From Clostridia bacterium (GTDB lineage Bacteria; Bacillota; Peptococcia; DRI-13; UBA5745), in the NCBI GenBank assembly GCA_018434325.1, contig JAHDPO010000004.1, positions 124,001 through 188,000 on the forward strand: 64,000 nt of DNA, written 5' to 3'. This document shows positions 13,716-57,131 of the stretch, one piece after another. Position 1 is the stretch's first letter. Each line of letters opens with the position of its first letter. The notes under the pieces are model-generated. The model did not search any database and was not told the DNA's origin. It saw only the letters and a program-made list of their open reading frames with translations. The position numbers and the translations under genes were made by a program.

Positions 13716-14912
13716 ATGGAGATGGCGGTGGAGACGATGGAAAATAACGAAAAGAATGCGATGAACGAAAAGAACGTGATGAACGAAAAGAACGTAGACA
13801 GTGCTGCCGGTGAAAACGTCGTTGCCGGCATAAACACCGTTGCCGGCGGCAAGGGAGAACGCCTGATCTACTTGGATATGATGCGGATATTTGCCACATT
13901 TACGGTAATTATATTGCACGCTTCCGCCGAGCATTGGCTGGAGGTGCCGGTAAGCAGCTACCAATGGCAGGTTTTTAATATTTATAACAGTTTCGTCAGG
14001 TTTAACGTTCAGCTTTTCGTTTTGATCAGCGGCGCCTTGTTTTTAGATAAAGCCGTGAGCATCACGAAGCTATATACGAAAAATATTTTGCGGCTGTTAA
14101 CGGCCTATATAGCCTGGTCTTTTATTTATGCTGTGGTCTATACCTATTTTAGCGGCAGCTTTCAGGGCAACGCCCTCCGGCCTATTGTTGTGCATATAAT
14201 AAAGACTGCGGTCAACAGCCATTACCACCTGTGGTATGTCCCGATGATCATCGGCGTTTATATGATGATCCCCATACTGAGGCCGATTATCGAGCATAAG
14301 GACTGCCGTAATATCTGCCGTTACTTTTTAGTTTTGTTTTTGCTGTTTGGTATTCTAAAGCCCAGCATATTCGCCTTTCCACTGCCCCATAAGGAGCTGC
14401 TGTCCACCGTTGCCAATATCATCAATGTTTCGGCGGCAGCAGGCTGGCTTGGCTATTTGATCCTGGGCTATTATCTGAGAAAATACCCGATGAGCCCTCT
14501 GCATCGTAATTTGGTTTATTCGGCGGCGGTGGCAGGATATATTTTTACGGCGGCTGCCAGCAGCTATTTATCGCTGAAAACCGGTGAAGCCACATCGTTT
14601 TTTACGTTCTCCTTTTCCTTGAGCAGTTTCCTCAGCACTGCCGCCTGCTTTATCTTTTTTAAATATGAAGTGTCAAAGATTCAGCTTAGCGAAAAGCTTA
14701 TCGGCATCATCGGCAGGATGTCGAAAAATATGTTTGGTCTGTATCTTATCCATGCCATGGTTTTAAGAATCCTTCTTGCAGCAGGACTGAGCGGCCTTTC
14801 CTTTAATGCCGCCGCTGCCGTACCCTTTGTTTCCCTGCTGACCTTTATGATCAGCTATGTCCTGGTGGAATTGATCGCCAAGATCCCTCTGCTGAATAAA
14901 TATATTATTTAA
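13716..14912 (+). CDS. Integral membrane acyltransferase, acyltransferase-3 family
   Basis: Up to 398 residues. After a ~50-residue polar leader the sequence ERLIYLDMMRIFATFTVIILHA opens an acyltransferase-3 domain, with the family's early Asp/Arg and the His of ILHA, and about ten membrane spans to the end. Proteins of this family O-acetylate or acylate surface polysaccharides and lipids. The leader contains three in-frame 18-bp tandem repeats (NEKNxM). The start is uncertain: 13716 and 13737 are both ATG, with only a weak GGTGGAG before the second. A TraX-like gene follows, possibly cotranscribed. Substrate unknown. Confidence 0.85.
   Translation: MEMAVETMENNEKNAMNEKNVMNEKNVDSAAGENVVAGINTVAGGKGERLIYLDMMRIFATFTVIILHASAEHWLEVPVSSYQWQVFNIYNSFVRFNVQLFVLISGALFLDKAVSITKLYTKNILRLLTAYIAWSFIYAVVYTYFSGSFQGNALRPIVVHIIKTAVNSHYHLWYVPMIIGVYMMIPILRPIIEHKDCRNICRYFLVLFLLFGILKPSIFAFPLPHKELLSTVANIINVSAAAGWLGYLILGYYLRKYPMSPLHRNLVYSAAVAGYIFTAAASSYLSLKTGEATSFFTFSFSLSSFLSTAACFIFFKYEVSKIQLSEKLIGIIGRMSKNMFGLYLIHAMVLRILLAAGLSGLSFNAAAAVPFVSLLTFMISYVLVELIAKIPLLNKYII
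13746..13799 (+). repeat. Three 18-bp tandem repeats in the acyltransferase leader
   Basis: Units at 13746, 13764 and 13782, each beginning AACGAAAAGAA and differing at a few bases. They stay in frame and code for NEKNAM/NEKNVM/NEKNVD. Confidence 0.9.
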
Positions 14913-16761: not shown

Positions 16762-16834
16762 AGGGGTATAGCTCAACTGGTAGAGTAGCGGTCTCCAAAA
16801 CCGTTGGTTGTGGGTTCGATTCCTACTGCCCCTG
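16762..16834 (+). tRNA. trnW: tRNA-Trp (anticodon CCA)
   Basis: 73-base cloverleaf: acceptor AGGGGTA pairs with TGCCCCT (one G-T pair), anticodon loop CTCCAAA gives CCA, the T-loop TTCGATT is present, discriminator G. The 3' CCA is not encoded. It has its own promoter and terminator. Confidence 0.97.
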
Positions 16835-17339: not shown

Positions 17340-18617
17340 ATGGAGCCGGCAGAGAAAATGTACTGGATGGCACTGCAAAAGGAGATCAAAAGCGATATTT
17401 TTCCTATAGCCCGGAAATTAATCGATTATTATGGCTCCCTGGCGGAATTCTGGCATAAAAACGATAGTATAGCTTTGCCGGAGCTATCTGAGATTATAAG
17501 GCAAAAGCTTATTTTAGCCCGGCAGCATTGCAGGCCGCACCAGCTTTGGGAGGAGTGCAGCCGCAAGAAGATAGGTGTGGTCTGCTGCCTGGAAGAAAGC
17601 TACCCGAAAGAGCTGTTGCATTTTTCCGGTTATCCGGTTATTCTTTATTATTATGGTAAGAAAGCGTTGTGGCATCAACCGGCGGCTGCCATCGTAGGCA
17701 GCAGGCGTTCTACTGCTTATGGCCGGCAGCTGGCCGAGGTTTTTGCTTCTGCTTTGGCACGGGCCGGGTTTTGTATCGTCAGCGGTATGGCGAAAGGCAT
17801 TGATGCCGTCGCTCATGAAAGCGCTTTAGCTGCCGGGGGAGATTCCATTGCGGTATTAGGCTGCGGAGTGGATGTGCCATACCCGCCGGAAAACCGCCGG
17901 CTTTATTGGCGGCTGCGGGAGGAAGGTTTGATCATCAGCGAATACTTTCCGGGAGAAAAGCCTCTAGCCTGGCATTTTCCCCAGCGTAACCGGCTGATCA
18001 GCGCCTTAGGCCGTTTTTTGCTGCTGGTTGAGGGAGAGGCCAGAAGCGGCGCTTTGATTACCTGCCAATGGGCTGCCGAGCAGGGCAAGGATGTTTGGGC
18101 TCTGCCGGGGCCGGTGACCAATCCTTCCAGTATCGGGCCTCTGCAATTGATTCAGGATGGCGCACAGCTGGCTATTACGCCGGAAGATATTCTCAGGGCG
18201 TATCTGCCTGCGGTTTATGGAGTGGCGGCAGCCGGCCATGAAGAGGATAATTCGGAATCGGGAGAAATAAATTACCAAACGGCAAAATTGAGGGAAAATC
18301 CAAAATCGGATCCAAAGTTAAATCCGAAATCAAACCCGAAGTCGAATCCAAAGGCAAACCGGGCTTCAAATCTCCAATTAAACCCACCTTCCCGCCCAAG
18401 CCAGCAGCAGCTTTTCTTATCTCAGAAGGAAGCTTTGACGTTGGTATCGCCGGCAGAAAAAAAGATTTTTCAGGATATCAGCTACTCTCCGGTTCATATC
18501 GATACCTTATTGACGGACCATCCTGCTTTAGCAGGGGATGTTTATTTAGGCTTGACAAATCTCCTCGCATTGCGTTTAATTGAGAAGTTACCAGGGGACT
18601 ACTATCAGAGAATTTAA
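17340..18617 (+). CDS. dprA: DNA processing protein DprA
   Basis: 425 residues; ATG with GGAGG 4 bases upstream. After an N-terminal SAM-like part, the Rossmann domain shows AAAIVGSRRSTAYG, FCIVSGMAKGIDAVAHESAL and LISALGRFLLLVEGEARSGA. DprA binds incoming single-stranded DNA and loads RecA during natural transformation. A C-terminal winged-helix remnant (VHIDTLLTDHP...) follows a linker of about 35 residues rich in Asn-Pro-Lys-Ser repeats (nt ~18297-18390), which is unusual. Begins the dprA-topA-trmFO-xerC block typical of Firmicutes. Confidence 0.94.
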   Translation: MEPAEKMYWMALQKEIKSDIFPIARKLIDYYGSLAEFWHKNDSIALPELSEIIRQKLILARQHCRPHQLWEECSRKKIGVVCCLEESYPKELLHFSGYPVILYYYGKKALWHQPAAAIVGSRRSTAYGRQLAEVFASALARAGFCIVSGMAKGIDAVAHESALAAGGDSIAVLGCGVDVPYPPENRRLYWRLREEGLIISEYFPGEKPLAWHFPQRNRLISALGRFLLLVEGEARSGALITCQWAAEQGKDVWALPGPVTNPSSIGPLQLIQDGAQLAITPEDILRAYLPAVYGVAAAGHEEDNSESGEINYQTAKLRENPKSDPKLNPKSNPKSNPKANRASNLQLNPPSRPSQQQLFLSQKEALTLVSPAEKKIFQDISYSPVHIDTLLTDHPALAGDVYLGLTNLLALRLIEKLPGDYYQRI

Positions 18618-24276: not shown

Positions 24277-25020
24277 ATGGGCGTTATTTCCATGAAGCAA
24301 TTATTGGAAGCAGGTGTGCACTTTGGTCATCAGACCCGCAGATGGTGCCCCAAAATGGCCCCATACATCTTTACGGAGAGAAACGGGATCTATATTATTG
24401 ATCTGCAGAAAACCGTAAAGAAAGTTGATGAAGCTTACGAATTTATCCGTGCCACAGTTACTGAAGGCAAGCATATCATGTTCGTAGGCACCAAGAAGCA
24501 GGCTCAGGAGACCGTTAAAGAAGAAGCTGACCGTTGCGGTATGTTTTACGTAAACGAGAGATGGCTGGGCGGTACCTTGACCAATTATCCTACCATCCAA
24601 AAACGGATCCAGCGTCTCAAAGAGCTGGAGAAGATGGAGGCAAACGGTACTTTTGATGTATTGCCCAAGAAAGAAGTGGCAAAACTTAAAGGTGAGATGG
24701 AAAAACTGGAACGCTTTCTGGGCGGCATCAAGGATATGCCCGGTTTACCCGGCGCCATTTTCGTCATTGACCCCCGGAAAGAGCACATTGCCATTGCAGA
24801 GTGCCATCGTTTAGGTATTCCTATCGTAGCTATTGTGGATACTAACTGCGATCCCGATGAGATCGATTATGTTATCCCCGGCAACGACGACGCTATCCGT
24901 GCAGTAAAGCTGCTGGCTGCCAAAATGGCCGATGCGGTTTTAGAGGCCAATCAGGGCCAGGCTGCCGAAGAGGCTCAGATGCTTGAAGAAGCAGCCATGG
25001 CTGCCGGAGAAGCAATGTAA
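24277..25020 (+). CDS. rpsB: Small ribosomal subunit protein uS2
   Basis: 247 residues from [20 protein letters not shown]; the longer open frame is rejected because AAGGAGGTG sits before this ATG. It carries the S2 signatures [12 protein letters not shown] and [20 protein letters not shown]. It helps assemble the 30S head/platform with bS1. A four-way-junction repeat and a terminator lie between it and tsf. Confidence 0.98.
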
Positions 25021-25039
25021 CCAGTCCAAGCCGGACATA

Positions 25040-25124
25040 ATACTATTCTGCGATTAAAATAGGGAATATTTTAATCTGGCAATTCATGATTGCCACTGCG
25101 CCAGAGGCGCAGGCAGATTAGTAT
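25040..25124 (+). repeat. Four-way-junction repeat, copy 1
   Basis: Outer stem ATACTATTCTGC (25040-25051) with GCAGATTAGTAT (25113-25124), 11 of 12 pairs. Inside are three hairpins with no base between them: 25052-25076 (10-bp AT stem), 25077-25095 (TGGCAAT/ATTGCCA) and 25096-25112 (CTGCGCC/GGCGCAG). Near-identical in reverse orientation to 44286 and 57047. Confidence 0.9.
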
Positions 25125-25137
25125 AAACTGCCAAACC

Positions 25138-25168
25138 GGGCGGGGGATGAGCCCCTGCCCTTTTTTTG
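25138..25168 (+). terminator. Terminator between rpsB and tsf
   Basis: GGGCGGGG/CCCCTGCCC hairpin followed by seven T. Confidence 0.85.
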
Positions 25169-25206
25169 AAAAGCGATGATGACAAGCAAGGAGGATATCT
25201 ATAGTC

Positions 25207-25851
25207 ATGATTACATCTGCAATGGTTAAAGAATTAAGAGAACGTACCGGGGCAGGCATGCTGGACTGCAAAAATGCCTTAACCGAAAAAAATGGCGATG
25301 TAGAAAAAGCCATTGAATACTTGAGAGAAAAAGGCCTGGCTGCCGCAGCCAAAAAATCCGGCCGTATTGCTGCCGAGGGCGTTTGCGAGTCCTACATTCA
25401 CGGCGGCGGCCGTATCGGCGTTTTGCTGGAGCTCAACTGTGAGACCGACTTTGTGGCCAAAACTGACGAGTTCAAGGGTTTGGCCAAAGATATCTGCATG
25501 CAGATTGCCGCTTCCAAGCCGGAATTTGTGCGCCGGGAAGATGTGCCTGCCGACGTGGTGGAAAAAGAAAAAGAAATTTTCACTTCCCAGGCCCTTAATG
25601 AAGGAAAACCTGCCAACGTTGTAGAAAAAATGATCGTGGGCAGAATCGAAAAATATTATAAAGAAATCTGCCTTTTGGAGCAGCCCTTCATTAAAGATCC
25701 CGACAAGACCATCAATCAGCTTCTGGTGGAAAGGATTGCCACCATCGGTGAGAATATCAACGTCCGCCGTTTTGTACGCTACGAGCTGGGCGAGGGTCTG
25801 GAGAAAAAGAAAGACAACTTCGCTGAAGAGGTTATGGCCCAACTCAAATAA
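25207..25851 (+). CDS. tsf: Elongation factor Ts
   Basis: 214 residues; [25 protein letters not shown] is the EF-Ts N-terminal module, followed by the core subdomain ([22 protein letters not shown]). It exchanges GDP for GTP on EF-Tu. AAGGAGG lies 12 bases before the ATG, longer than usual, but no better start exists. A terminator precedes the gene and another follows, so tsf may be a separate transcript from rpsB. Confidence 0.98.
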
Positions 25852-43445: not shown

Positions 43446-43526
43446 ATACTCATCTGCAATTAAAAACTTCGTTTTTAATTTGCCGCATAAAGTGCGGCAG
43501 TGGGCTTTGCCCACGCAGAATAGTAT
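43446..43526 (+). repeat. Four-way-junction repeat, variant copy 2
   Basis: Outer stem ATACTCATCTGC / GCAGAATAGTAT (10 of 12 pairs), enclosing three abutting hairpins: 43458-43480 (AATTAAAAAC/GTTTTTAATT), 43481-43499 (TGCCGCA/TGCGGCA) and 43500-43514 (GTGGGC/GCCCAC). Same geometry as 25040 but unrelated arm sequences. Confidence 0.88.
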
Positions 43527-43528
43527 TG

Positions 43529-43555
43529 TACGCCGGTTATGCCGGCGTATTTTTT
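43529..43555 (+). terminator. Terminator of the envelope operon
   Basis: TACGCCGG/CCGGCGTA stem with a 5-base loop and a T-run. Confidence 0.88.
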
Positions 43556-43629: not shown

Positions 43630-44286
43630 ATGAATGGATATCGCAGAGAACGGGTAGCCACGCTGCATAAAGAAAATATCATGCGGGCGGCAGAACATCT
43701 ATTTTTGGAAAAAAGCTTCATTCAGACCACCATCCAGGAAATATCCAAGCTGTCCGGCTACAGCCGCCGGACGATCTATGCCTATTTTGTAAGTAAGGAG
43801 GATATTTTATATCACATTTCCCTGCAAAAACTGCTGATTTTGCAGAAAGAAGTCATTGATTTGATTGAGTCGACAGACAGCTTTCAGAAAAAGTACGAGA
43901 ATTTTTGCGAGGCAATGATCAGGTTTCATCAAGCCTCAATACAATCCTTCAATGAATTGGGAGCTTATGGGCCAAAGGATGCCGAAGGGCAGGAGCCGGC
44001 GGTGATCGCCGATATCGTTGATTCTGTCACTGTGATCTGTACTCTGCTGGCGGAACTGATCGAAAACGGCAAAGAGCAGGGATTGGTGGCCGAGGATGTG
44101 GAGCCGGCGGCGGCAGGCCAAATCCTCTGGGCAGCCATTTCATCCCTGCTGGATTTAATCAAAATTAAAAAGAATTATATTACTGCCGGTCTGCAAATGG
44201 ACGATAAAGAGTTTTTAAATTATGGTTTTCGTCAGCTGCTCAATTCCCTGCTGGCCCGGCGGCTGCCGGCTCCCGGCGGCAATTAA
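43630..44286 (+). CDS. TetR/AcrR-family transcriptional regulator
   Basis: 218 residues; GAGGAG before the ATG. N-terminal helix-turn-helix (residues ~20-65): IMRAAEHLFLEKSF and SGYSRRTIYAYFVSKEDILY. The C-terminal helical ligand domain is unassigned. A palindrome at its own -10 suggests autoregulation. Targets may include the neighbouring decarboxylase or the upstream operon, but no second copy of the operator was seen at those promoters. Its stop codon is fused to the start of a repeat (copy 3). Confidence 0.93.
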   Translation: MNGYRRERVATLHKENIMRAAEHLFLEKSFIQTTIQEISKLSGYSRRTIYAYFVSKEDILYHISLQKLLILQKEVIDLIESTDSFQKKYENFCEAMIRFHQASIQSFNELGAYGPKDAEGQEPAVIADIVDSVTVICTLLAELIENGKEQGLVAEDVEPAAAGQILWAAISSLLDLIKIKKNYITAGLQMDDKEFLNYGFRQLLNSLLARRLPAPGGN

Positions 44287-44378
44287 TACTAATCTGCAAT
44301 TCTGCCTGCGCCTTTGGCGCAGTGGCAATCAAGAATTGCCAGATTAAAATAGGGAATATTTTAATCGCAGAATAGTAT
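44286..44378 (-). repeat. Four-way-junction repeat, copy 3
   Basis: Reverse orientation of copy 1. Outer stem 44286-44297 with 44367-44378; hairpins 44306-44322, 44323-44341 and 44342-44366, plus an 8-base AATTCTGC duplication at the left junction. It fills the gap between convergent genes: the tetR TAA is at its left end, and the last codons and stop of the decarboxylase lie in its right end. Confidence 0.9.
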
Positions 44379-45791
44379 AAGCCGCCGTTCTATTACCTGG
44401 CGGGCAGATTCCTCCATGGAACGATAGGCAGCTATCACATCGGCTTCTTCCGTCATCCAATTGGTCATACAAACCCTGAGGGCCGGTTTATTTAAATAAG
44501 GCACATAATTGGAATAGGTAATACCCGCTTTTTGCACTTCACCGAGGATCTCTTTGATCAGATCCTCGGTGATTTTTTCCGGGTCCAGCTTCAAAGTAAA
44601 AGCAACGACATTGCTTCTGACTTCATTCAGCAGGCAAAAACAGTCGCTGCTTTTTATCATTTCCCCGTAAAGGCGGCACATAGCCACATTACGCCGGCAG
44701 ATATCGGCATAGCCGTCTTTACCGTAAGCCAGCATAGTGAACCAGGCGGGTAAGGCCCGCAGGCGGCGGGAACCCTCCGGCGTCAAATGGTGGTGTGGGG
44801 TGTTTTCGGAGGCGGCAGCGCCGGCAATCAGCTCATTCGTGAAGCTTTGATACTGCTCATGGCGATGACGGGTCAAAACCACAGCTCCGTCATAAGGCAC
44901 ATTCAGCCATTTATGGGTGTCCATGGTCAGAGAATCAGCATGAGCAAGCAGCCGGAAGCTTTCTTGCCATTCCGGCACGCAGGCCATTAAGCCGCCGAAG
45001 GCGCCGTCGATATGGAGCCAGAAGCCATATTGTTCCTTAAGCTCGGCAATCGCATTTAAATCATCAATATCGCCGCTATTGGCTGTGCCGATGTTGGCAA
45101 TGTAAATCAAAGGCCGGCTTTGATCTCTGGCGGCCAAATAATCCTTCAAGGCCTGGGTATCTACAGCTTCCCGGCCCGGCAGCAGGGGCAGGGCATGGAT
45201 ATGGCGGCCGAAGCCGGCCATCGAGGCGGCCTTATAGTTGGCGCCGTGAGTCAGGCCGGAAGCGATATCCGGACGGGGCAAGCCGTAAAGGCCTTCTTCG
45301 CTGGCGGAATGACCGCTTTGAGCGGCGGCCCATTGGCGGGCGCAGGTAAGAGCCACAAAGGCGCTGGTGGTGGCGCCGGAAACGAAAACACCCTGAAAGC
45401 TGGCCGGTAGTCCTAAAAGCTCCCGGATAAACTGCATGGCTTCCTGCTCAATTTGCCGGTCCAGGCTTCCCGGCTGGCCGAAAGCGTTTTGGTCAATCAA
45501 AGAGGTGTACCAATCACCGGCTAAGGCAGCAGGGGTGACGCCGCCGATCACGTAGCCGAAATAACGGGAGCCGGAACTGGCCGGTACCCAGGGCAGGTAA
45601 TGCTTGCGAAAAAAATTCTGAACTTTTTCGGCGCCCAGTCCTTCGGCAGGTAAAGCCGAGGCGGGAGCACCGGGAAAGCCGGGCTCGACCTTTTGTTTTG
45701 AACGTTTTGCCAAAAAAGCCAAAGCATCTTCATAGGTTTGGCGCAGGATCGATTCCTGCCGCTCTAAATCTTCTTTTAAAATGGGGTACAT
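44361..45791 (-). CDS. PLP-dependent group II decarboxylase
   Basis: 476 residues; GGGAGG 7 bases before the ATG. Fold-type I PLP enzyme of the aromatic/acidic amino acid decarboxylase group: VFVSGATTSAFVAL, WLHIDGAFGGL (PLP ring Asp) and Schiff-base Lys294 in TMDTHKWLNVPYDG. Cytosolic. The substrate (aromatic amino acid, glutamate or cysteine-like) cannot be decided. The last six codons (LILFCD) and the stop come from the adjoining repeat, so the C-terminus may have been altered by its insertion. Confidence 0.88.
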   Translation of the reverse strand: MYPILKEDLERQESILRQTYEDALAFLAKRSKQKVEPGFPGAPASALPAEGLGAEKVQNFFRKHYLPWVPASSGSRYFGYVIGGVTPAALAGDWYTSLIDQNAFGQPGSLDRQIEQEAMQFIRELLGLPASFQGVFVSGATTSAFVALTCARQWAAAQSGHSASEEGLYGLPRPDIASGLTHGANYKAASMAGFGRHIHALPLLPGREAVDTQALKDYLAARDQSRPLIYIANIGTANSGDIDDLNAIAELKEQYGFWLHIDGAFGGLMACVPEWQESFRLLAHADSLTMDTHKWLNVPYDGAVVLTRHRHEQYQSFTNELIAGAAASENTPHHHLTPEGSRRLRALPAWFTMLAYGKDGYADICRRNVAMCRLYGEMIKSSDCFCLLNEVRSNVVAFTLKLDPEKITEDLIKEILGEVQKAGITYSNYVPYLNKPALRVCMTNWMTEEADVIAAYRSMEESARQVIERRLILFCD

Positions 45792-50089: not shown

Positions 50090-53000
50090 ATGGCTACTAT
50101 TCGGGTATACGAATTAGCAAAAGAAATGGACATGAACAGCAAGGTCTTGTTGGAAACCATGATTGAGTTGGGCCTGCCCATGAAAAATCATATGAGTACG
50201 ATACCAGGTAACGAGGTGAATCGGATTAAAGCTATGGTACTGAAACATTTGGGAGATCCCAATGCCGAGCCTATACCAAGGCCCGTAGAAAAGAAAGAAA
50301 AGCCCCCGCTGGCGGGCTTAAAGAATCGCCCCGCTCTGAGAGAACAGGGGTTTAATCAAGGGCAGCCTCAGACCGGCACTGCCGGCAGCGCCGCCAACGT
50401 CAATACCAATACTAATACTAATATTAATGTCGGCCACGGCGGGCCGGCGGCAGCCGGCGGCGGTCAGCGTCCCGCCGGCAGCTTTAACGGCGCCAGGCCC
50501 GTAGCAACCGGGACCCAGCCGGTTCCCGCCGCCAGAAGCCGGCAGCCCGGCGACAGCATCAGCCCCCAGGAAGCACAAGCCACGGCCAGGAGCTTTGCCG
50601 CCGACAAGCAGAGAAGCGCCGGCCCAGGCAACCGTGGCTTCACCCCTGCCGGACAGCCTGGCGGCCAGTCCGCACCACAAGGACAAAGGCCGCCTGCATC
50701 CGCCCAGGGACAAAGGCCGCCGCAGCAGCAACAGCGCAGCACCATGGGTCAGGGCGGTCAGGGTGGCCAGGGCAATCAAGGAGGTCAGGGCGGTCAGGGC
50801 CAGCGTCAGGGTTTTGACCAGGGCAGAGGCCGCAATCAGGGGCCCAGGCCTGCCGATCAAGGCAATAGGCCCGCCGGCAAACCCATGGGTCAAGGCCAGA
50901 ACAGGCAGCCCGGCGGCGTTCAGTCTGCGGAGCAAGGCCAGCATCAAGGACAGCACCAGGTTCAGAGTCAAAACCAGGGACAAAACCAGGTTCAGGGCCA
51001 GAGTCATGGACATCAGGGACCTGGGCAGAATCAAGGCCAGAATCAAGGCCGCAAACCGGGCCAGGGCGGGCGTTTTGCCGGTCAGGGTCAAGGTCAGGGC
51101 CAGGGCCGCAACAATACCGATAAATATACGCAAGTCCCGGCTGGAACGCAGCAGCAGAAGCCCCGCCGTCCGGGGACGCCTGTAGACAATCGCGCCAAAG
51201 GCTTTAATAAAGGGCCGAAAGCCCCGACTATCGGCCGGGATACCGCCGATCAGCTGACTCATTTGGGCTCGGCTACGGAAGAAGACAGCCGTTTTCTCAA
51301 CAAGGTTGAAAATGCCGTGGGTGAAAAAGCTTACGATAGAGGAGGTATTTCTCGGACTCCCACCCGTAAGCAGACACGTCCTGAGGATATAAGAAACAAC
51401 CGCGGCAAGGGCAGAGGCGGCCGTGATCGGGGCAAGCCCCAGCGGCCGGAGCCGGTTCCTGTGGTCATTAAAAACATCACGCTGGAAGGCCCCACTACCG
51501 TTATGGAGTTTGCCCACCTTTTGGGCCGCAAAACGGGAGATATCATCAAGAAGCTGATCTCTTTGGGGGTCATGGCCAATATCAATCAAGAGCTGGATAT
51601 GGATACCTTGATCCTTTTGGGTCAGGAGTTTGGCACCCAGGTGGAGGCCAAGATTACGAAAGAGGATATCCTGATTGCCGCAGAAGAGGCTGATGATCCG
51701 GCAAGTCTTAAGGAGAGGCCGCCGGTAGTGACCATCATGGGCCACGTCGATCATGGTAAAACCTCTCTGCTGGATGCTATCCGCCAAGCCAATGTGCAGG
51801 CTTCCGAGGCCGGCGGTATTACTCAGCATATCGGCGCTTATCAGGTAGAGATCAATAATCGTAAAATCACCTTTTTGGATACGCCGGGCCATGAAGCTTT
51901 CACCGCTATGCGGGCCAGAGGCGCTCAATGCACCGATATCGCCATATTGGTGGTGGCTGCCGACGACGGCGTTATGCCTCAGACCGTAGAAGCAATCAAC
52001 CATGCCAAAGGGGCTAATGTACCGATCATCGTAGCCGTCAACAAGATTGACAAGGAAGGGGCCAATCCCGAGCGGATCAAGCAGGAGCTGACGGAGCACG
52101 GCTTGGTTACCGAAGACTGGGGCGGCGAAACAATATTTGCGGAGGTATCCGCCAAAACCAGGCAGGGTATCGATCAATTGCTGGAGATGATTCTGCTGGT
52201 AGCGGATATGGGCGATTTAAAAGCCAATCCCGACCGCAAAGCCAAAGGCGTAGTCGTCGAGGCTAAATTGGATAAAGGCAGAGGCCCTGTGGCTACGGTG
52301 CTGGTGCAAAACGGTACTTTGGAAACAGGAGATTTCCTGATTGCCGGTACGGCCCAAGGCCGGGTCCGGGCCATGAATGACGAGCGGGGCAGGCAGCTGA
52401 AGAAGGCCGGTCCTTCCACGCCGGTGGAAATTGTCGGTTTATCGGAAGTGCCTCAGGCCGGCGACATTTTCCAGGCTGTGTCCGATGAGCGTCTGGCTAA
52501 ACAGATTGCCAGCGAAAGAATGGCGGTCAAACGGGAGGAAGTTATCCATTCCCGGAGCCGTATATCGCTGGATGATTTGTTTGCTCAGATCCAAACCGGT
52601 GAAGTCAAGGATCTCAATATTATTATCAAGGCTGACGTTCAGGGTTCTATCGAAGCCCTAAAGTCCTCGTTGGAAAAACTGTCCAACGACGAGGTCAGGG
52701 TGCAGACCATCCACCAGGCCGTAGGCGGCATTACCGAGGCTGACGTAGACTTTGCTTCCGCTTCCAATGCCATTATTTTGGGCTTTAATGTGCGGCCGGA
52801 TGTTAATGCCAGAAAAGCCGCCGAAGCAAACCAAGTGGATATCCGTCTGTACCGGGTGATTTACAATGCCATTGAGGATGTCAAATCTGCTCTTTCCGGC
52901 CTTTTGAAACCGGAGATTAGAGAATCAGTGATCGGCCGGGCGGAGGTTCGCCAAATCATCAAAGTGCCCAAGGTGGGAGCTATCGCCGGCTGTTATATTT

Positions 53001-56777: not shown

Positions 56778-57047
56778 ATGGTAATGACCAAAGAATCAAA
56801 AACAGGCGTAATCGAAAAAAACAGGATTCATGAATCGGATACCGGTTCTCCCGAGGTGCAGATCGCCATTCTCACCGAGCGTATCAATTACCTGACGGAG
56901 CATCTGAAGATCCACAAGAAGGATCATCATAGCCGCCGGGGTTTGCTGAAAATGGTCGGCGCGCGTCGCGGCTTGCTGAATTATGTTAAGAGCAAGGATT
57001 ATGACCGCTATAAGAAGATTTTAGAAACTAACGGCATTCGCCGCTAA
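56778..57047 (+). CDS. rpsO: Small ribosomal subunit protein uS15
   Basis: 89 residues: [40 protein letters not shown]. Binds 16S rRNA central domain. The TAA stop is fused to the left end of a four-way-junction repeat, followed by a terminator. Confidence 0.98.
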
Positions 57048-57131
57048 TACTAATATGCGTGGGCCTCTGGCGCAGTGGCAATCAAGAATTGCCAGATTAA
57101 AATATTCCATATTTTAATCGCAGAATAGTAT
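57047..57131 (-). repeat. Four-way-junction repeat, copy 4
   Basis: Reverse orientation of copy 1. Outer ends ATACTAATATGC / GCAGAATAGTAT; AT arm and TGGCAAT arm conserved, GC arm partly decayed (GTGGGCC opposite GGCGCAG). Starts inside the rpsO stop codon. Confidence 0.88.

Follow-up and report, generated by a model that had tools for sequence, protein, structure and literature searches.

A three-hairpin repeat in a Clostridia genome as the probable solo half of a heterodimeric, non-autonomous DNA transposon

The repeat at 43446-43526 of a 64,000-nucleotide stretch of a Clostridia bacterium genome (hereafter the window; C44:124001-188000 of host genome G000, 3.83 Mb in 70 contigs) has the architecture of neighboring repeats but other arm sequences, raising the question of how a structure can be kept while its sequence is exchanged. 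The preliminary description of this locus answered with selection on the fold itself. Here, the repeat is examined along with its relatives in G000 and in a sister genome (G008), and it is argued that it is very probably the solo half of a member of a family of non-autonomous DNA transposons (MITEs) whose parent form is a heterodimer of two cloverleafs, termed B and A.

Architecture of the repeat and its neighbors

The window contains four copies, at 25040-25124, 43446-43526, 44286-44378, and 57047-57131. The copy at 43446-43526, matched by a type-B query on the minus strand, comprises a B unit that retains the two outer ends of its parent heterodimer and parses as ATACTCATCTGC / AATTAAAAACTTCGTTTTTAATT (23) / TGCCGCATAAAGTGCGGCA (19) / GTGGGCTTTGCCCAC (15) / GCAGAATAGTAT, with a 12-nt end at either side of its three arms. 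These arms, delimited by sequence and fold, are an AT-rich hairpin of 23 nt (43458-43480), a middle hairpin of 19 nt (43481-43499), and a GC-rich hairpin of 15 nt (43500-43514). The left terminal repeat, TACTCATCTGC (43447-43457, plus strand), is an end of the B-outer type, and the right terminal repeat, TACTATTCTGC (43515-43525, read on the minus strand), is an end of the A-outer type, both recognized from sequence. The outer stem extends beyond ATACT/AGTAT by CTGC/GCAG. When folded as DNA, the copy forms a three-hairpin junction of -26.5 kcal/mol, with a z of -8.85 and an energy that none of 200 shuffles equaled, and the RNA fold likewise recovers this junction (z -7.97). Moreover, the pattern ATACT-N50-75-AGTAT occurs three times in the window against 0.41 expected, a count reached by 0 of 100 shuffles. 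The early recognition of the copy as a genuine structural variant, closed by ATACT/AGTAT and of the same architecture as the other copies, is borne out by the sequence and by both folds. The companion claim that all three arms are unrelated in sequence needs correction. Read on the minus strand, the arms follow in the order GC, middle, AT, which is also the order of the other copies, each taken on its own strand, and the size classes match; when A and B are compared on opposite strands, they agree at 14 of 23 one-sided stem letters, against a shuffle mean of 8.4 (P 0.006), and at 7 of 13 in the two non-AT arms alone (P 0.035). A search of the window at Rfam gathering scores returned a tRNA at 16762-16834 as its sole match, with none at the element, and a tRNA search likewise found nothing there. 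Directly behind the element, between VanY-like and TetR genes, lies an intrinsic-terminator-like hairpin with a T tail (43528-43550).

The other three copies are of type A. The first, a solo on the minus strand between rpsB and tsf (25040-25124), is flanked by TAA on both sides, and a type-B copy occupies the same site in G008. The second, a solo on the plus strand (44286-44378) with a TAA target duplication, carries 8 extra nt (AATTCTGC) and has a longer interior than the other window copies. It starts with TACTAATCTGCAATTCTGCCTGCGCC, in which the left end of B runs into the inner end of A at a common ATT; this start reads as a deletion junction. Its TAA is also the stop codon of the TetR gene (43630-44286). 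On the other side, the same element provides the final codons and the stop of a convergent PLP-decarboxylase gene (44361-45791, minus strand; region 44284-44380). The third copy, on the plus strand with a TAA duplication (57047-57131), has a hybrid GC arm, one half B and one half A. Short tandem repeats, apparently inside open reading frames (ORFs), were also seen in the window at 13746-13847, 18296-18360, and 50747-51050.

A head-to-head heterodimer, its solos, and their insertion sites

Dimers were first seen in the flanks of four copies from genome searches for both types. The parent form is a head-to-head heterodimer of 162-195 bp, composed of a B unit, a linker, and an A unit, with the TIR TACTAWTCTGCRATTAAAA at both ends. 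Each unit is a three-hairpin cloverleaf, A and B share 18-19 bp ends, and two dimers fold as two cloverleafs each (z -10.1 and -12.0). Adjacent A/B pairs number 28 (from 25 dimer loci in G000 and 3 in G008), every one of them in the same head-to-head arrangement, and no AA or BB pairs were found among the adjacent unit pairs of the fetched G000 and G008 loci, the four adjacent B/B rows representing a single B interrupted by an inserted stretch. By unit BLAST of the fetched loci, elements occupy 47 loci in G000, of which 25 have both units, 14 only A, and 8 only B, and 5 loci in G008 (3, 1, and 1, respectively); since 11 of the 47 abut a contig end or lie no more than about 25 bases from one (counted by reading), the real number in G000 may be higher. 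With up to 3 mismatches, the TIR has 89 matches in G000 and 17 in G008, compared with 0 and 3 for a backwards control. The longest open stretches in three dimers (45-54 aa) are too short for a transposase.

The 37 two-ended copies, compiled by hand, span 44-195 bp; this count omits copies truncated at contig ends and those that lack one end, among them L001, L087, L088, L090, L100, L102-L106, L108-L112, L123, and L128. Very short forms of 44-47 bp (L119:2425-2472, L120:3323-3370, and L082:577-621) have terminal repeats around barely more than one arm, as if a fold-back had deleted the rest. A B sub-lineage (L077, L078, L079, L080, L081, and L094) has an insert in its GC arm that contains CTATAGCTATTTATGTGGGCTTG, an extra hairpin. 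Further, seven loci (L116, L117, L118, L121, L129, L130, and L131) present partnerless TWATACTN-TCTGC-like ends, often followed by AAT, which may be remnants or may persist as a promoter-like -10 (TATACT).

The relation between solos and dimers can be read from their ends. In the dimer, the end adjoining the AT arm of B is TACTAATCTGC and that adjoining the AT arm of A is TACTATTCTGC. In solo B copies, the AT arm lies by the A-type end and the GC arm by the T-type end, and in solo A copies the reverse holds; among the solos with both ends, this swap was read in 5 of the 6 B copies (all but L079) and in 8 of the 10 A copies (all but L007 and L095). The swap pointed out in the preliminary description is therefore real, and general among the solos. 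The accompanying suggestion, that the interior is inverted relative to the ends, also fits these data, but an inversion is not required: a solo that loses one unit of the A/B dimer and keeps both outer ends will have its AT arm beside the other end type. Judged by their sequences, the solo copies are best taken as half-deletions of the dimer, mostly with both outer ends retained. Besides the site at 25040, there are two orthologous sites at which a dimer in G008 corresponds to a remnant in G000, indicating that remnants are decay products of dimers at no fewer than two sites. At the 25040 site (25020-25207), identical TAA flanks enclose a solo A in G000 and a solo B in G008. The end types at this site point to a dimer oriented one way in G000 and the other way in G008, so that simple reciprocal deletion would also need a flip, a conversion, or two insertions.

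Insertion of the elements is accompanied by a 3-bp TWA duplication. Flanking 3-mers are identical in 22 of the 37 two-ended copies, and all 22 are TTA or TAA; when right flanks were shuffled among copies, a mean of 11.9 were identical and 1 in 10,000 permutations reached 22 (P 0.0001). The remaining 15 lack an identical duplication. Two of the window sites are empty in G008. At 57047, G008 has an exact empty site with a single TAA (CGCCGCTAA/GAAGG) where G000 has CGCCGCTAA-element-TAAGACGG, with one TAA duplicated; the 44286 site is likewise empty. As the copies concerned are solos, they may have landed as dimers and lost one half afterward, or solos may transpose too. It should be noted that two observations at the focal repeat itself speak against the transposon reading: its flanks (CTA/TTG) show no duplication, whether this was lost or was never present, and its intergenic region has no alignment in G008. 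In 8 of the 37 copies, the one at the TetR gene included, the TAA terminates an ORF of at least 89 aa (P 0.016), as it does in 7 of the 22 copies with identical duplications (P 0.0024); the background in the window is 32 among the 355 TAA that are either non-coding or stops. The ORF cut-off was set by one of the copies, so this enrichment should be read as suggestive. The family also suggests a nearly neutral mode of landing, in which insertion hits a TAA stop codon and the duplication restores it.

A scheme consistent with these observations can be outlined. A DDE-type transposase acting in trans, since lost or not recognized here, would have moved the elements. Some landings would have hit TAA stop codons, which the 3-bp duplication restores. 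Solos would then arise by deletion between short repeats at the cloverleaf base, TCTGC where B is lost and GCAGA where A is lost, presumably through slippage helped by extruded hairpins. The same hairpins may provoke local switches of template, with loops and linker flipped and the arms kept palindromic. A bolder extension, to which we give only a small chance, is that the heterodimer of diverged cloverleafs is itself required for transposition. The unlike A and B ends would be told apart by the transposase, TAA stops at which the element lands would be restored by the 3-bp duplication, and the flipping of nested palindromes (loop, linker, and perhaps the whole element) would constitute a readable record, in a natural genome, of template switches during replication.

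Selection on the fold or template switching at hairpins

The strongest alternative, although an improbable one, is that the repeat is a structured functional element, acting as RNA or as a cruciform, whose fold is under selection while the sequence of its arms is free to change. The aligned units, restricted to near full-length rows (35 of the 43 for A and 21 of the 41 for B), do have well-kept stems. The share of stem cells that pair is 97.4% in 29 distinct A units and 97.5% in 18 distinct B units, and it falls to 27.5-45.3% if the partners are slid. Variation in stems is roughly one-tenth of that in loops, with minor fractions of 0.018 versus 0.177 in A and 0.024 versus 0.187 in B. Further, 9 of 23 stem pairs compared between A and B are changed on both sides with pairing kept. 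Percentage paired and covariation score beat all shuffles in both sets, an excess that relatedness alone can cause. The covariation test that the preliminary description called for is less favorable to selection. Each subfamily has a single compensated pair, and 294 (A) and 450 (B) of 500 shuffles do as well. The two sites empty in the sister genome likewise argue against a functional fold.

A mutational process offers another source for such stems. Template switching at hairpins also repairs them, yielding perfect stems and multi-base compensatory changes without selection, as set out for RNA genes (PMC8794818). Exchanged arms are therefore no proof of selection, and the divergence of arms between A and B could stem from either selection or template switching. 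Several features of the family resemble the products of such a process. The AT-arm core TATGGAATAT occurs 8 times and its inverse 6 times, the core TAGGGAATAT 7 times and its inverse twice, and the GC loop of B reads AAA in 15 units and TTT in 3. The central linker lies in one orientation in 22 and in the other in 5 of the 27 readable among 28 dimers, the reverse class including a one-base variant. In one A unit (L108), an inverted copy of its own middle arm replaces half of the AT arm, and the hybrid GC arm of the copy at 57047 fits template switching as well. Loops and linker in both orientations are, we infer, what template switching at hairpins would leave, and they point to a mutational process that compensates stems without selection (PMC8794818).

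The match of the repeat to the fold is hardly accidental, since further structural variants, the lack of which would have made it so, exist as more B-type copies in G000 and G008. What does not follow is that exchanged sequence implies selection on the fold itself: A and B are the standard halves of one element, covariation is confined to one pair in each and does not exceed that of shuffles, and the flipped loops and linker are marks of palindrome-maintaining template switching.

Distribution, known systems, and significance

A pattern search free of arm sequence matched 2 of 25 genomes of the order, both from this genus. In a wider contig collection, 10 stretches matched, of which 3 are from MAG R1-B15.2; the other 7 showed no fold into three abutting hairpins. 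A TIR search of 46 genomes of the class returned G000, G008, and a lone match with 1 mismatch in G022, partnerless in the stretch examined. The family was thus not found beyond this genus in the order, class, and contig-collection searches, the patterns of which demanded near-exact ends and could miss diverged relatives. As for a parent transposase, DDE_Tnp_1 (PF01609) is absent from G000, DDE_Tnp_4 (PF13359) and DDE_Tnp_1_2 (PF13586) are absent from both G000 and G008, and no convergent TIR pair around a transposase was present among the loci examined. The region between two dimers of contig C65 was considered as an autonomous element and rejected, as its ORFs read as pyruvate kinase-like and signal peptidase-like.

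The repeats also resemble REP/REPIN elements moved as single-stranded DNA by an HUH transposase (RAYT, IS200/IS605). REP, BIME, and REPIN sequences associated with RAYTs are intergenic palindromes that form head-to-head dimers and heterodimers (PMC2817692 and PMC3733652), and in all of these respects the present family is similar. It differs in having a TIR at both ends (TACT...AGTA) and no terminal GTAG or CGTC tag, a 3-bp target duplication with an exact empty site, and a unit that is a triple hairpin of about 80 nt rather than a hairpin of 20-40 bp, which leaves this origin very doubtful. Finally, that two unrelated repeat families have ends alike by convergence and match in architecture by accident is hardly credible, since A and B, for all the strong difference of their middle and GC arms, stand together at 25 dimer loci of G000 with common 18-19 bp ends.

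A closer likeness is to prokaryotic MITEs such as Chunjie, Correia, QMITE2, and Nezha, which are described in the review PMC10969869 as multi-copy, non-coding elements of less than 500 bp with TIRs and stable stem-loops, with direct repeats that fade with age and many truncated or size-variant copies. The family described here is like them in length, TIRs, duplication, dispersed multiple copies, folds, and variant copies; all the features by which that review defines MITEs are found in it other than a known parent, and the duplication is missing at the copy at 43446-43526. Unlike Chunjie, Correia, QMITE2, and Nezha, it consists of a heterodimer of two diverged three-hairpin units, forms solos mostly with both outer ends, carries loops and linker in both flip orientations, and has no parent IS found for it.

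IS5/IS1031-type and PIF/Harbinger-type elements produce 3-bp TNA/TWA duplications. The present family shares with these a 3-bp TWA-type duplication but differs from them in the absence of a PF01609 transposase (G000) and of PF13359 or PF13586 transposases (G000 and G008). The open-licence literature that was searched held no description of this element, which is no proof that it is unpublished.

The unusual part of the family is its combination of a heterodimer of unlike cloverleafs with flips at several levels. Maintenance of hairpins by template switching has been described for RNA genes (PMC8794818), and the present proposal extends it to a mobile element. Structure that is conserved while its sequence is exchanged can arise as such an element runs through its life cycle and does not require selection on the fold. 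With dozens of copies in two sister genomes, among them dimers and solos, sites both shared and empty, and loops in flipped orientation, the family forms a natural data set that could be used to gauge how much of the apparent covariation of bacterial hairpins is made by template switching.
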